Below are positions 35,770 to 42,831 of a stretch of 64,000 nt of DNA, in pieces. This DNA comes from Lentisphaerae bacterium ADurb.Bin242 (GTDB taxonomy: Bacteria > Verrucomicrobiota > Lentisphaeria > Victivallales > UBA1829), in contig MWCA01000013.1 in assembly GCA_002069785.1 (NCBI GenBank), positions 1 to 64,000 on the forward strand. The letters are read 5' to 3'. The notes under the pieces are model-generated. The model was not told the DNA's origin. It saw only the letters and a list, made by a program, of their open reading frames with translations, and did no database searches. Positions within the stretch are counted from its first letter, which is position 1. Every line of letters starts with the position of its first letter. The translations under genes and the position numbers were made by a program.

Positions 35770-37140
35770 TCAGGAGACGACGACCGGTTCGATGTCCATC
35801 AGTCGGCAGAAATGCCGGAGCTCCCGCGAGATGTCGCCGTAAGCCAGGGAAAAATGATGCTCGAAGCCCTGTCCGATGATAACCTCCCGGAGCTTGTCGC
35901 AGCCGGCGTCGAACCGGATTTTCAGCGGATTGCCGCGCACGAACAGATCCGTGTCGATGCCATCGCCTGCCGCAATGAGCATGCGGAAGCCGGTGCCGTC
36001 GCGGATTTCGCCCAGCCGCGCCAGCGTAACGCGTCCGGCGCGGAGCGGAAATTCATTGGTCAGGCCCTTGACGTCGCCGCCGTCGATGATCGAACTTTTG
36101 CGGAGACTCGATTCATAGTTCTCCTTGCAGAGCCTGCACGGAGCCGCGCCACAATGCCACGCGACGCCGTAGTCGCCCTCGCAGACGATCAGGTCGCAGA
36201 AGAACGGCGCGTTTCCGGTCAGCTCCCGTTGAATTTGCATCAGGACCGCCCCGTAAACGTCGCCTTCGCACGCGGTCACGGTGTCGTTGTTGGTGAGCGT
36301 GCCGAGGGTGGAGCAGACGCCGATCCCGCAGAGTTCGTTCATGTTGACCTCGGGCCAGCAGCGCACGGCGAAGGTCCCTGCCCCGTATTTTTCCTTCATC
36401 TTCTGAACGGCGGTGTAAAACGCGGCGGATTTTTTCAGTTCGGTTTCATCCGGACCGTCGATCTTACGGCTTTCCGCGCGGATTCGAGCCAGCGCGGGCG
36501 CGATTTCCGCGTCGCCCAGGGCTTCCGCCGTCTTGACGACCTCCAGAAGCGTGATGTATTTGAGCTCGACGCCGAGTTTCTCCCGCAGCATCATTTCATC
36601 GCAGCCGGAAGTGTAGAACCCGGGCACGCGGCCTCCGATGACACCCAGCCGCAAAGTCCGGACGACCTTCGCCGCCTGAACGGAGCGGAAGACCGACGCC
36701 AGTTGCGAGGCCGCCTCGGCGGATTCCGTCGGAGCATGAACATGGAAGTAGGGAATGCGGAGCTTCCACAGGAAGTGGGAGTTCATGTTCGCCGCACAGA
36801 AGGAGTTCGCCTGAAGGCGTCCGCCGTTCGCGGGCGGCTCCGGCATCGACCACAGGATTACCGGGACTTTCAGGCGGTTGGCGATCAGCGGGACGATCGT
36901 GCCGAGGGAGAACGTCATGAACTGGCAGACGATCGCGTCCACCCGTTCCCCGGCGAAACGGTCCAGCATTTCCAGCGCCTCCGGCTCGAAGGCGATCATC
37001 TTCTCCCCGCCGACAACCGCCCAGTCCGGGGAAAGGTTTTTCATTGTTTTCAGCGCGTTTTTCCGTTTTTCCTCCAGGGAGGGATTCATCCAGCTTCCCT
37101 TGGTCAAAGGGAGATATCCGATCTTCCATTTTGCATTCAT
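35770..37140 (-). CDS. L-fucose/L-arabinose isomerase-family protein
   Basis: The 456-residue protein has the layout of the fucose isomerase superfamily: an N-terminal Rossmann-like part (V-D-A-I-V-C-Q-F, V-P-V-I-L-W), a mid segment R-L-G-V-I-G-G, and a C-terminal metal/substrate region with A-V-R-C-W-P-E, C-E-G-D near 290 and D-G-G-D. Related proteins interconvert aldoses and ketoses with a divalent metal; the exact sugar is unknown. It follows the GH4 gene by 17 bases in the AraC-controlled operon, so it may process the sugar released there. Confidence 0.72.
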   Translation of the reverse strand: MNAKWKIGYLPLTKGSWMNPSLEEKRKNALKTMKNLSPDWAVVGGEKMIAFEPEALEMLDRFAGERVDAIVCQFMTFSLGTIVPLIANRLKVPVILWSMPEPPANGGRLQANSFCAANMNSHFLWKLRIPYFHVHAPTESAEAASQLASVFRSVQAAKVVRTLRLGVIGGRVPGFYTSGCDEMMLREKLGVELKYITLLEVVKTAEALGDAEIAPALARIRAESRKIDGPDETELKKSAAFYTAVQKMKEKYGAGTFAVRCWPEVNMNELCGIGVCSTLGTLTNNDTVTACEGDVYGAVLMQIQRELTGNAPFFCDLIVCEGDYGVAWHCGAAPCRLCKENYESSLRKSSIIDGGDVKGLTNEFPLRAGRVTLARLGEIRDGTGFRMLIAAGDGIDTDLFVRGNPLKIRFDAGCDKLREVIIGQGFEHHFSLAYGDISRELRHFCRLMDIEPVVVS

Positions 37141-37157: not shown

Positions 37158-38519
37158 TTATTCTTTTTGAGAGAAGCGCGGATCGATCTGGTCTTTCAGC
37201 GCTTCGAAAAGTTCATCGGTCATAGACTGAATTTCGTCCAGCCCCAGCACCGCGGATGTCAGGGGGTCCGCGGCAATCGCGTGGAAAATGTCCCGGCGGC
37301 TTCCGCTCAACGCCCCCTGTGCGCCCAGAATCTGAACATTGATCATCGCACGGTTCAGCGCGGCCAGATGTTCCGGATAGTTTTCGATCCGGGCCGGAAA
37401 AATACCCGCGCCCGTCACCAGGCACGGCACCTCGACGCAGGCGCCCGGCGGGAGTGTCGGAATGAGGCCGCGGTTCATCACGTTCAGGTTGGCTTCCAGG
37501 GGGGTATTTTTCTCCATGGCGGCGATCAGTTGAGGCGCGTATTCATGGCCCGGGGTCAAGTCGAAGTCTTTCCGTCCTTCCAGATACGCCTGACTCTCCT
37601 TTTCATTTTTGATCTGGAGCAGGCGGCAGGTTTCCAAGGATGCACCCGGCACCCCGGCTGCGACCGGACGCCACGCAACGGGATCGTCCCCTTTTGCGGA
37701 AACGGTTACGGAACAGTATTTTTCCAGAAGGTCGGTCCGTTTGCGGAAATACGGAACATATTCGCTGCCGTGTCCGCTGCCTTCCGTGGGAAAATAGCCG
37801 AAATGACGGAGCATCTCGAACCGGACCTTTTCCTGATGATAGATTTCCGGATCGTCCAAACACTTCCGCAGTTCGGGATACAGGTCCCGGCCGTCGGCCT
37901 CGAGCTTGAGCATAAACGCCTGATGGTTCACGCCCGCCGCGCAATAATGCAGTTTTTCGTACGGAATTTTCAGCCATTCCGCGATCCGGCGGGAAGTCCC
38001 CTGAACGCTATGGCAGAGTCCGAACACCCGGACGGTTTTCGCCCGGCCGGACAGCGCGATCGTGTTCATCGACATCGGGTTCACATAGTTCAGGAGCATG
38101 GCTCCGGGGCAGACCTCCTCCATCGCGTCGAGCACTTCCAGAAGGGCTTTCAACGTGCGCAGACCCCGGAAGACGCCGCCCGGATTGAGCGTGTCGCCCA
38201 CGACCTGTTTCACGCCGTATTTTGCCGGAATTTCATATTCCAGCTTCTGGTGTTCGAGCGTGCCGCAGCGGAAAATCGTGATCACGTAATCGGCCCCCTT
38301 CAAAGCGGTCCGCAGCTCGGTGGTCTCTTCGGGATCGAACGGAACGCCGAGCTTTTTCGCGAGTTTTTTCATGACGCGGCAGGAGCGGTCCAGACGCGCC
38401 GCATCGATGTCCATCATGGAATATTGACACTTCCCGGTCGTTTCGTCCAGCAGGAGGTCCCGGATGATGCCCTGTGTAAAAATGACGCCCCCGGCGCCGA
38501 TCAAAACGATTTTTTTCAT
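37158..38519 (-). CDS. GH4-family alpha-galactosidase/alpha-glucuronidase-type enzyme
   Basis: The 453-residue cytoplasmic enzyme has the GH4 layout. An N-terminal NAD-binding motif (I-V-L-I-G-A-G-G) is followed by D-I-D, N-Y-V-N-P-M near 148, the metal-site C-H-S near 173 and G-V-N-H near 201. GH4 enzymes use NAD+ and Mn2+ in a redox-elimination mechanism and accept alpha- or beta-glycosides. C-H-S with G-V-N-H points to the MelA-like (galactosidase/glucuronidase) branch rather than the 6-phospho-glucosidase branch. It is the promoter-proximal gene of an operon with the isomerase, divergent from the AraC gene. Confidence 0.85.
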   Translation of the reverse strand: MKKIVLIGAGGVIFTQGIIRDLLLDETTGKCQYSMMDIDAARLDRSCRVMKKLAKKLGVPFDPEETTELRTALKGADYVITIFRCGTLEHQKLEYEIPAKYGVKQVVGDTLNPGGVFRGLRTLKALLEVLDAMEEVCPGAMLLNYVNPMSMNTIALSGRAKTVRVFGLCHSVQGTSRRIAEWLKIPYEKLHYCAAGVNHQAFMLKLEADGRDLYPELRKCLDDPEIYHQEKVRFEMLRHFGYFPTEGSGHGSEYVPYFRKRTDLLEKYCSVTVSAKGDDPVAWRPVAAGVPGASLETCRLLQIKNEKESQAYLEGRKDFDLTPGHEYAPQLIAAMEKNTPLEANLNVMNRGLIPTLPPGACVEVPCLVTGAGIFPARIENYPEHLAALNRAMINVQILGAQGALSGSRRDIFHAIAADPLTSAVLGLDEIQSMTDELFEALKDQIDPRFSQKE

Positions 38520-38564
38520 GACAGTTCACTTCTCCCGATTGCATTTTTGCTGACTCTGAAATAT

Positions 38565-38624
38565 AGTATAGACCGGAAGATCGTGTTTGTAAATTGGATT
38601 TTTGTACGGAAAACTGGATTTTTG
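38565..38624 (-). promoter_or_regulatory. GH4 operon promoter with two AraC-type direct repeats
   Basis: On the minus strand, TTTACA (38593-38588) and TATACT (38570-38565) have a 17-base spacer. Just upstream are two direct repeats with 13 of 14 bases identical: 38591-38604 and 38611-38624, 20 bases apart (core AAAnTGGATTTTTG on the plus strand). The promoter-proximal copy overlaps the -35 box, the usual geometry of AraC-type activation. The distal copy lies just before the AraC start codon, so it could also control that gene. Confidence 0.6.
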
Positions 38625-38629
38625 CCAAT

Positions 38630-39457
38630 ATGACCGCACCCCAGGAAACAGAAACCCCTTATTGCGTCTACCGGCCGGAACTGAACTCCTTTCCGGGTGT
38701 CGCCCTGCCGGTGTTCCCGCGTTCCTCCGGGTATGTCTGCCGGAAAGAAAAGGAGATGGAGGACGTGCCGCCCGGAGTCAAAAACTTCGTCCAACTTTTC
38801 TGGGGCGTGTCCGGCGAAGGTGAAATCGAGGTAAACGGAGAGAGATGTCTGCTGCGGGCGGAGGACGTGGTGTACCGCCTGCCGATGCAGCCCCACCGGC
38901 TCCGGACGCGCTCGCCCAAATGGAAATACCGCTGGATCGCTTTCGACGGCCCCGGCGCGGAAACCTTTCTGCACTCCTACGGCTATCCGGAAACGCCTTT
39001 TCACGCGGGACCGTGTCCGCACGAGTATTTCATCAACTTCAAGGCGATGATGCTCCAGCGGACTCCCTACTGCTGGCGGATGATGTTCGCGGAAATCTGC
39101 CGGATTCTGGCCGCCGCGGGCGGCACCAACAGCGAACCGACCGTTGAAAACAGGATCGTGCTCCAGGTGATCGCCATTTGCAAGGACCGCTATTACGATC
39201 CCGACCTGAATGTGAATGCGCTCGCGGCGGAGCTGTCCGTCGGACGCTCCACCCTGCTGGGAATCTTCAAGAAGAAGATGAATCTCACGCTGTCCGCATA
39301 CCTGAGCCAGGTCCGGCTCCAGGCGGCCCTTTCCCTGCTGAAAAATACCCTCATGCCTCTGCGGAATATCGCCGATGAATGCGGCTTCCGCGATGTGAAT
39401 TACTTCTGCCGTTTCATCCGGAACAATACGGGCCGGAGGCCGTCCGAACTGCGCTGA
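38630..39457 (+). CDS. AraC-family transcriptional regulator (likely activator of the GH4 operon)
   Basis: The 275-residue protein has an N-terminal cupin-like AraC-binding domain (F-W-G-V-S-G-E-G-E-I-E-V, then Y-R-L-P-M-Q-P-H). The C-terminal pair of AraC helix-turn-helices covers residues 180-275 (A-A-E-L-S-V-G-R-S-T-L and I-A-D-E-C-G-F-R-D-V-N-Y-F). The start is uncertain: the ATG at 38630 has no good Shine-Dalgarno, but earlier in-frame codons fall within the repeats. It is divergent from the GH4/isomerase operon. Confidence 0.85.
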   Translation: MTAPQETETPYCVYRPELNSFPGVALPVFPRSSGYVCRKEKEMEDVPPGVKNFVQLFWGVSGEGEIEVNGERCLLRAEDVVYRLPMQPHRLRTRSPKWKYRWIAFDGPGAETFLHSYGYPETPFHAGPCPHEYFINFKAMMLQRTPYCWRMMFAEICRILAAAGGTNSEPTVENRIVLQVIAICKDRYYDPDLNVNALAAELSVGRSTLLGIFKKKMNLTLSAYLSQVRLQAALSLLKNTLMPLRNIADECGFRDVNYFCRFIRNNTGRRPSELR

Positions 39458-39469
39458 AAAAGCGACGGA

Positions 39470-40444
39470 TCAGCGGCGGGTCGTTGTCTCCTCAAACCAT
39501 GTGAGATAACTTTTCATCCAGCTGATATGCTCGAAATGAGTCTCCGCGCTGAACCAGCCCGCCTGCGGAATGATGAAACCGTCGATCAGGCCGTCATACG
39601 AGGCGCGGCAGATGGTGCGGATGCTCTTTTTGAACACCTCCAGCGGGACGGGATATCGGCATTTCATGTTGGAACCGAAGTCATGAATGTAAATTCCCTG
39701 AATGATCTTCTTGTCCGGACCGAGGGCTTTCCTGACTGCCTTGATGTCCTTTTCATAGTTATCCCAATAGTCCTGCGAAGAGACCCAGCACCAGCGGGAA
39801 ACGATGTCGACGTACTCGGCAAACGGTGCGATCTGCCGGTCAACCGGGAAATGGGAATAGGTGACGATTGCAATTTTCAATTCCGGATTGATGCTCCGGA
39901 TCAGATTGCGCAATTGTTTCAGTTCCTCCGGAGTCATTGCCGTGTCGGGACCTCCGTTATTGAAGTCATCCAGATTGATTCCCTTGATGTTTTTGTATTT
40001 CAGGGACAGCTCTGCGATTTTCCGCGCGGATTTGTCGCGTCCGCCGTGTTCGAGGGTGCAGTACACTTCCGGGATGTCCGCCAGCAGTTTCATGTGGGCG
40101 TCCGAAAGACGGTTGTCGATGCAATTGTCGAAACAATCCTGTTCCGTTTCCGGGAAATGTTTCCGGATATAGTCGGGATTGAACATGGAATTCATGTAGA
40201 ACGTCTTGCCCGCGCCGAGATATTTCGTCGCGGTTTCCAGACTGCAACGGGTTTTTCCGAAGATGAACGGCGCGGCGGTCGGAACCTTGTCGAGGACATA
40301 GCCCCACGAATAAATTTTTTCTCTCACTTTGACTACCTCTTTTCCGGGAATTTTTGTTTGGGTTATTTCGTCAGCGGCGGCTGGAAACATAAGGATTGAA
40401 AACAGCAACGAAAACGGCGCGGCTCGATACAATTTCATGTTCAT
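39470..40444 (-). CDS. Secreted protein of a local paralogue family (TIM-barrel-like)
   Basis: The 324-residue product has a signal peptide (M-N-M-K-L-Y-R ... F-P-A-A-A-D). The mature part resembles a small alpha/beta barrel: C-S-L-E-T-A, I-K-G-I-N-L-D-D-F-N-N, L-K-I-A-I-V-T-Y-S-H, Y-V-D-I-V-S-R-W-C-W and I-I-P-Q-A-G-W-F. It is clearly paralogous along its length to 41848-42831. Function is unknown; the conserved D-D-F and R-W-C-W positions are candidate active-site elements. Its ATG overlaps the SGNH hydrolase stop (ATGA). Confidence 0.65.
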   Translation of the reverse strand: MNMKLYRAAPFSLLFSILMFPAAADEITQTKIPGKEVVKVREKIYSWGYVLDKVPTAAPFIFGKTRCSLETATKYLGAGKTFYMNSMFNPDYIRKHFPETEQDCFDNCIDNRLSDAHMKLLADIPEVYCTLEHGGRDKSARKIAELSLKYKNIKGINLDDFNNGGPDTAMTPEELKQLRNLIRSINPELKIAIVTYSHFPVDRQIAPFAEYVDIVSRWCWVSSQDYWDNYEKDIKAVRKALGPDKKIIQGIYIHDFGSNMKCRYPVPLEVFKKSIRTICRASYDGLIDGFIIPQAGWFSAETHFEHISWMKSYLTWFEETTTRR

Positions 40445-41847: not shown

Positions 41848-42831
41848 TTATTCCAGCCTGGCAGTGGTGGCGTCCTCCCAGTCCAGATAATTTTTCATCC
41901 ATTGAATCAGCTCTCTCCGTTTCGGGTCATGAAACGCACCGGAAGAAGGAATGATGATTCCGAGGGTTTTTCTCATCGCCACGGCCTCAAAACTTTGCTT
42001 GAAAAGCTCAAACGGCATGTAACGGTCAGCCAACGGGTCGGACGGATAGACATACAACCCGTGAACGATCGGTTTCCCAAGGAAGTGTCTCAGGTGCGAA
42101 ATCTTGATGGATAAATCGTCCTCCAGCCAGTATTTCGGATTCGGCATCCAGCACCAGCGGGTCAGGACATCGAAGTATTTCACATAAGGAACCAGGTTTT
42201 CCGGAGGCTGGTAGTCATAGCTGACCAGCCAGAGTTTCAAGCCGGGATTACAGCTTTTCAGGTTGTCATAAACTTCCTTGAGCTGTTCCGGGGAAAGGAA
42301 TGTGTGCGGGGCGTTGGTGCGGAAATCATTGAAAATGGCCCCTTTGATATTTTTGAACCGAAGAGACGCTTCGCTGATCCGGCGGGCGGATTTGGCATAA
42401 CTTTTCGGATCGTTGTCGGCATCGCCGTGCTGGAGTCCGCAAATGATTTCCTCAAACCCGGACAGACGCTCGAAATGCTTGTCGGAAAAAAGATTCTTTG
42501 CAACGGACGGAGAAGCGTTCGTATAGGCATCCAGCCGCTTCGGAGTCCACTCCGAATTCATGTAAATCACTTTTCTGACACCCAGGTAATTGGCTGCTGT
42601 TTCAAGGCTGCAAGAGGTTCCGCCGGGCTGTTTGTCATAAGGAATCCGGCAAGGCACCTCGTCGATCATATACCCCCACACATAAATTCTGTCCCGCAGC
42701 GACTTCGGGACCTTTTTTTTGACCGCTTTTGCGGCGGGATTTCCCGGATTGGAGTCATTTCCATTCATGGTGAACCCTCCGGCCAAAACCACAAGCAAAA
42801 CAACGGACACGGAAATCATGAAATTTTTCAT
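41848..42831 (-). CDS. Secreted protein, paralogue of the product at 39470-40444
   Basis: The 327-residue product has a signal peptide (M-K-N-F-M-I-S-V-S-V-V-L-L). Its mature part matches its paralogue: C-S-L-E-T-A-A-N-Y-L-G, Y-M-N-S-E-W, I-K-G-A-I-F-N-D-F, L-W-L-V-S-Y-D, Y-F-D-V-L-T-R-W-C-W, I-I-P-S-S-G. A conserved D-F replaces D-D-F in the paralogue. It is the first gene of the three-gene operon and diverges from the AraC gene at 42966. Function is unknown. Confidence 0.65.
   Translation of the reverse strand: MKNFMISVSVVLLVVLAGGFTMNGNDSNPGNPAAKAVKKKVPKSLRDRIYVWGYMIDEVPCRIPYDKQPGGTSCSLETAANYLGVRKVIYMNSEWTPKRLDAYTNASPSVAKNLFSDKHFERLSGFEEIICGLQHGDADNDPKSYAKSARRISEASLRFKNIKGAIFNDFRTNAPHTFLSPEQLKEVYDNLKSCNPGLKLWLVSYDYQPPENLVPYVKYFDVLTRWCWMPNPKYWLEDDLSIKISHLRHFLGKPIVHGLYVYPSDPLADRYMPFELFKQSFEAVAMRKTLGIIIPSSGAFHDPKRRELIQWMKNYLDWEDATTARLE

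Follow-up and report, generated by a model that had tools for sequence, protein, structure and literature searches.

A tandem direct-repeat site overlapping the promoter of a GH4 operon in a Lentisphaerae bacterium: a probable class II AraC-family operator

The two tandem repeats in front of the GH4 operon in this DNA very probably serve the AraC-type protein encoded beside them as its docking site. Judging by its sequence, the site is in our reading a class II AraC-family operator at which the regulator probably also represses its own gene. We propose that a dimer of the AraC-family protein encoded from position 38630 would bind the two half-sites side by side, together with a sugar ligand. 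Its proximal subunit would overlap the weak −35 box TTTACA and recruit RNA polymerase with sigma-70 to the operon of GH4 and the isomerase, and the same protein would also activate unlinked GH2 and GH123 genes through near-identical sites. The location of this operator within the araC leader, a third half-site, and a −10 region shared by the two divergent promoters would together act as a brake on araC whenever the operon is active or the AraC protein is in excess. We assign this explanation as a whole, namely binding to the tandem half-sites, activation of the GH4 operon, GH2 and GH123, and repression of araC, a probability of roughly 0.88. The coordinates of the features are collected in Table 1; the window refers to the entire 64,000-nucleotide stretch analysed.

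Table 1. Features of the regulator/GH4 locus, with positions in the window
Feature	Position	Strand	Basis or remark
Repeat 1, AAATTGGATTTTTG (minus strand CAAAAATCCAATTT)	38591-38604	+	promoter-proximal candidate AraC half-site
Repeat 2, AAACTGGATTTTTG	38611-38624	+	promoter-distal candidate AraC half-site
GH4 operon −35 box, TTTACA	38593-38588	-	promoter scan
GH4 operon −10 box, TATACT	38570-38565	-	promoter scan and geometry comparison
Presumed araC −10 box, TATAGT	38562-38567	+	read from sequence; absent from promoter-scan output
Presumed araC −35 box, TTGCAT	38539-38544	+	inference; 17 bp from TATAGT
Third half-site, TGCATTTTTG, 1 mismatch to TGGATTTTTG	38540-38549	+	55 bp away from repeat 1; may serve self-repression
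AraC-family regulator gene, 275 aa	38630-39457	+	Pfam domains
GH4 gene, alpha-galactosidase-like, first of presumed operon	37158-38519	-	PF02056, PF11975
Ketol-isomerase-like gene, second of presumed operon	35770-37140	-	Fucose_iso_C

The initial annotation described two 14-base direct repeats abutting a TTTACA-N17-TATACT promoter, and both parts of this description hold. The repeats agree with what it says of them, are identical at 13 of 14 positions and are offset by 20 bp, and repeat 1 has 3 bp in common with the −35 box. When 3 mismatches at most are allowed, the pattern TGGATTTTTG-N10-TGGATTTTTG matches once in the window, against a mean of 0.01 in shuffled sequence. A sigma-70-like scan of positions 38480-38680 returned this promoter as the only one, on the minus strand and directed towards GH4, matching the consensus at 10 of 12 positions, where shuffled sequence yields 0.3. 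The same scan found no terminator-like sites around the repeats in that interval. Rfam searched at the gathering threshold over 38400-38750 gave no match, and thus no known RNA element is present there. Repeat 2 ends 5 nt before the likely araC ATG (38630); the operator therefore also lies inside the araC leader. The initial annotation mentions neither this nor the third half-site, the overlapping −10 boxes, the unlinked targets and the genome-wide repeats described below.

The neighbouring gene is indeed of the AraC type, as had been claimed. Its product matches PF12833 (63.5 bits) and PF00165 (37.7 bits), giving a double HTH, and carries an N-terminal AraC_binding domain (PF02311). The assignment of the promoter to a GH4 operon is likewise borne out by the two Pfam matches of the divergent gene, whose product is 39% identical to E. 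coli MelA and scores 476.1 bits on PRK15076 (cut-off 486). The isomerase-like gene follows after a gap of 17 nt. Over its full length it matches the sulfoquinovose isomerase model of NCBIfam, where it scores 251 bits with a cut-off of 700, and its sequence suggests a ketol-isomerase relative. Beyond the regulator, an SGNH/GDSL hydrolase gene lies between two minus-strand genes, at 39470-40444 and 41848-42831, which encode 324 and 327 aa and are without a Pfam match; the translations of these two resemble each other by eye.

The tandem site is conserved. Lack of conservation in relatives had been named in the initial annotation as grounds against its proposal, and the site in fact recurs among AraC/GH4 loci, with 4 of 14 cases weak. 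The named close relatives are metagenome-assembled genomes of Victivallales, Victivallis and Lentisphaeria. The comparison drew on 37 loci, of which 30 were examined for a divergent GH4 gene; the seven omitted comprise two at contig ends (L048 and L053) and five remote Paenibacillus/Cohnella loci. Among the 30, a divergent GH4 at 60-75% identity is found in 12 and a remote one in 5. The latter (L058 and L066-L069, 22-27% identity) were kept outside the set of 14, which consists of our own locus, L017 (GH4 66% identical) and the 12 loci of the relatives. Across these 14, the TGGATTTTTG pair at 20 bp shows no mismatch out of 20 positions in two loci, 2-3 in four, 5 in four and 6-7 in four, so that the site recurs with 0-5 mismatches in 10 of 14. 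The corresponding shuffle P is at most 0.003 in ten loci, 0.009 in L070, 0.03 in L049 and L050, and 0.11 in L065, where the scan chose the wrong place. L050 and L065, with 7 mismatches each, are weak cases, and the motif of L049 is not convincing. Upstream of the AraC match in L039, the half-site occurs three times at 20-bp steps rather than twice.

The distance between the repeats and the −10 box is also fixed. We compared 21 promoters, comprising the 14 AraC/GH4 loci, five GH2 promoters, one GH123 promoter and one paralogous AraC/GH4 pair (C12), and sought the best −10 hexamer at distances of 26-43 bp, counted from where the proximal repeat starts. This distance is 33-35 bp in 20 of the 21, a count in which the tie-break favoured 34 and which becomes 19.0 when ties are shared; 3.4 are expected from shuffled spacers, and the 21 are not independent, several loci being close relatives. 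At this spacing, 19-21 bp separate the proximal 14-mer from the −10 box downstream of it. The −35 boxes at the candidate operators (TTTACA, TTTCCA, TTGCGC) are weak, as expected for activator-dependent promoters. At the paralogous C12 locus (L231), an AraC gene of 40% identity and a GH4 gene of its own again diverge, and 20-bp repeats overlap the promoter TTGACA-N16-TATAAT.

A search for the motif elsewhere in the genome, proposed in the initial annotation, revealed near-identical sites with like −35/−10 geometry before two unlinked genes. Across the 303 contigs of our own genome (G000), the tandem pattern, allowed 3 mismatches at most, gave seven matches, versus one for the reversed control. 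The three best are our own site, with no mismatch, and the promoters of a GH2 gene (L227; PF02836) and a GH123 gene (L230; PF13320), with one mismatch each. The GH2 site lies upstream of its gene with TTTACA-N17-TATACT, and the GH123 site with TTTCCA-N16-TATATT. A combined half-site and promoter search recovered two sites with 2 mismatches, at our own locus and at the GH2 promoter, and a doubtful third with 3, and the reversed control none. The half-site AAANTGGATTTTTG with one mismatch occurs 24 times in the genome versus three times for the reversed control, mostly as single copies. The locus would define a small, testable regulon of GH4 with the isomerase, GH2 and GH123.

Of the remaining tandem matches, that at C3:122515 (3 mismatches) was rejected, having no properly oriented gene adjoining it; a further one lies at C1:184645. 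The sites on C71 (2 mismatches) were also rejected as targets, as they look like the motif of another paralogue. These two sites (L228, at ~1774 and ~7176; TGGATTTTTATTGACATTTNTGGATTTTTT) are near-identical, have similar flanks and lie ~5.4 kb apart, and an AraC gene has its stop codon near one of them. Their sequences suggest a duplicated promoter of another paralogue.

The orthologues of the two unlinked genes behave differently from each other. For each gene, 20 matches with assigned loci were checked. In L249 the contig starts within the gene and L272 has a short flank, so that the stretch scanned is not the true upstream region; with these two discounted, 18 relatives were counted for each gene. 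The GH2 site is kept, with 3-4 mismatches, in 4 of the 18 (G004, G012, G019 and G024), all of which have the orthologous AraC gene beside GH4. In G011, G018, G023 and G026, a different AraC gene is divergent from GH2; the GH2 orthologues in G011, G018 and G026 showed no site, and that of G023 has a weak one (6 mismatches, P 0.007). GH2 is divergent from another AraC gene, without a strong GH4-type site, at G011:C17, G018:C77, G023:C371, G026:C193 and G001:C189, and from these sequences its regulation in the five genomes appears to have been rewired. The GH123 orthologues of the 18 relatives gave a single weak match (L263, 5 mismatches), and this site is convincing in our own genome only.

On the araC side of the spacer, the third half-site, which is TGNATTTTTG-like, overlaps the presumed araC −35 box. 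The presumed −10 box of araC and that of GH4 share positions 38565-38567, a 3-bp overlap on opposite strands. The third half-site is present with 1-2 mismatches in 9 of the 14 AraC/GH4 spacers, this locus included, at 55 bp from repeat 1 in seven loci, 54 bp in L041 and 53 bp in L039. The shuffle P per locus is 0.000-0.022, except for L045 (0.171). It was not found in the other five spacers, which are one group (L042, L043, L044 and L050) and L049, nor in any of the six unlinked GH2/GH123 promoters or in the C12 paralogue. Its occurrence only where an araC promoter is present suggests a self-repression site of araC. A simpler alternative is that it may be merely a conserved −35 box plus a T-run.

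Different explanations for the repeats have been considered. Since the genome contains at least 150 HTH_18 (AraC) genes by profile matches, many with their own 20-22 bp repeats, a paralogue other than the neighbouring one could be the binder of a real AraC-type operator. We regard this as improbable, because the site travels with this particular AraC gene in most of the 14 AraC/GH4 loci, and the four relatives that keep the GH2 site all have this gene beside GH4. It is less plausible still that the site mainly represses. Some AraC-family proteins do repress, and the repeats both overlap the GH4 −35 box and sit between the presumed araC start point and the ATG, where a bound protein would block araC and the overlap at GH4 would likewise mean repression. 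Such a role does not account for the fixed distance from repeat to −10 box in 19-20 of the 21 promoters, including unlinked ones with no adjoining araC, and the weak −35 boxes are those of activator-dependent promoters. Chance is hardly credible as an origin: the motif is A/T rich, it lies in A/T-rich intergenic DNA, and short two-copy repeats are common, but only 0.01 occurrences are expected in the window, and chance would leave unexplained the conserved spacing, the promoter geometry and the trans targets. An activating operator bound by the neighbouring AraC protein thus remains our preferred reading. The sequence features of a class II AraC site are present together: a double HTH, direct half-sites two helical turns apart, a proximal overlap with the −35 box at a fixed distance from the −10 box, and conservation with further targets.

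The arrangement resembles melR-melAB of E. coli, where an AraC-family gene is also divergent from a GH4 alpha-galactosidase-type gene. MelR uses tandem sites ~20 bp apart, the proximal one overlapping the −35 box, with a further site at melR for self-repression; melR autoregulation has reportedly been the subject of a published paper. An extra half-site at the regulator promoter is found here too (9 of 14 loci), presumably with the same function. In contrast, the regulator here matches MelR in the HTH only (29% identity over 87 aa), and with the MelR model it reaches 29.7 bits against a cut-off of 253. It is thus not a MelR orthologue, and the system is not the MelR system by descent, although its layout is similar. 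There is also no melB-like transporter gene beside GH4, and the spacer is laid out differently, with overlapping divergent −10 boxes.

The likeness to AraC-family activators working from a site that overlaps the −35 box, put forward in the initial annotation, is supported by comparison with AggR. AggR is reported to occupy a site 21-22 bp upstream of the −10 box that overlaps the −35 box and is said to permit contact with sigma domain 4 (PMC6392122). The 19-21 bp observed here is close to the distance at these class II promoters. AggR acts from a single functional site at the fimbrial promoters described in that report, whereas two tandem half-sites are found here (PMC6392122). Predicted AraC-family rhamnose regulators have 21-bp direct repeats with a sequence unique to each regulator (PMC3870299). 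The site here shares with them direct repeats and a periodicity of about two helical turns, but the regulators, sugar and phyla are different, and the words Lentisphaer and Verrucomicrob are absent from that text (PMC3870299). AraC-family regulators of sugar use have been found or predicted before to have direct repeats that recur every 21 bp (PMC3870299), and the site described here is a further example. Bidirectional promoters are common in E. coli, and activation in one direction can repress the other (PMC12825309). The overlapping pseudo-symmetric −10 boxes between divergent genes are similar to these. The starts predicted here from sequence alone are ~16 bp apart (if 7 bp separate the −10 box from the start), compared with a most common value of 18 in E. 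coli in that text (PMC12825309). Literature searches on AraC in Lentisphaerae, Victivallis, Victivallales and Lentisphaeria and on Lentisphaerae regulons, with subscription journals largely outside their reach, returned nothing on AraC sites in this lineage, which is poorly studied and mostly uncultured.

Similar repeats precede other AraC genes of the genome. We screened the upstream regions of 100 AraC genes, taken roughly in score order rather than at random, with this locus included deliberately. Fragments and long frames were left out, as were a few more genes towards the end. Direct repeats identical at 12 or more of 14 positions and spaced 20-22 bp precede 15 of the 100 (this locus among them), 5 of 247 non-AraC genes and 2 of the 88 that form the low-GC subset of these controls; for a spacing of 30-32 bp the counts are 2, 1 and 0, respectively. 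At 11/14, the 20-22 bp spacing is found in 30/100 AraC versus 18/247 non-AraC regions, and the 30-32 bp spacing in 10/100 and 18/247. The spacing peaks at 21 bp (10 of 100 AraC genes), with a mean of 0.4 for spacings outside 19-23. The half-sites of different genes differ in sequence, and an in-frame start lies no more than ~60 nt away from most of the repeats. The motif TATATTATA occurs in 14/100 AraC upstream regions and in none of the 247 controls or 88 low-GC controls; TATTATA occurs in 26/100, 4/247 and 3/88.

These observations could reflect a lineage-wide cassette copied across an expanded AraC family, consisting of a near-symmetric shared −10 and two half-sites 20-22 bp apart before the regulator start codon, with each paralogue having its own half-site and the operator activating the divergent catabolic gene while repressing the regulator. 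We offer this tentatively, at slightly less than even odds. If it is true, one genome would be a natural library of scores of AraC proteins paired with their cognate sites, large enough to derive a DNA recognition code for the AraC family. Reading the repeats before AraC start codons may also allow the targets of many AraC regulators that are so far uncharacterised to be assigned. Some repeats contain the start codon, and the signal could therefore be partly coding. The AraC genes at L125, L133, L140, L164 and L170 have 21-22 bp repeats that seem to include it.
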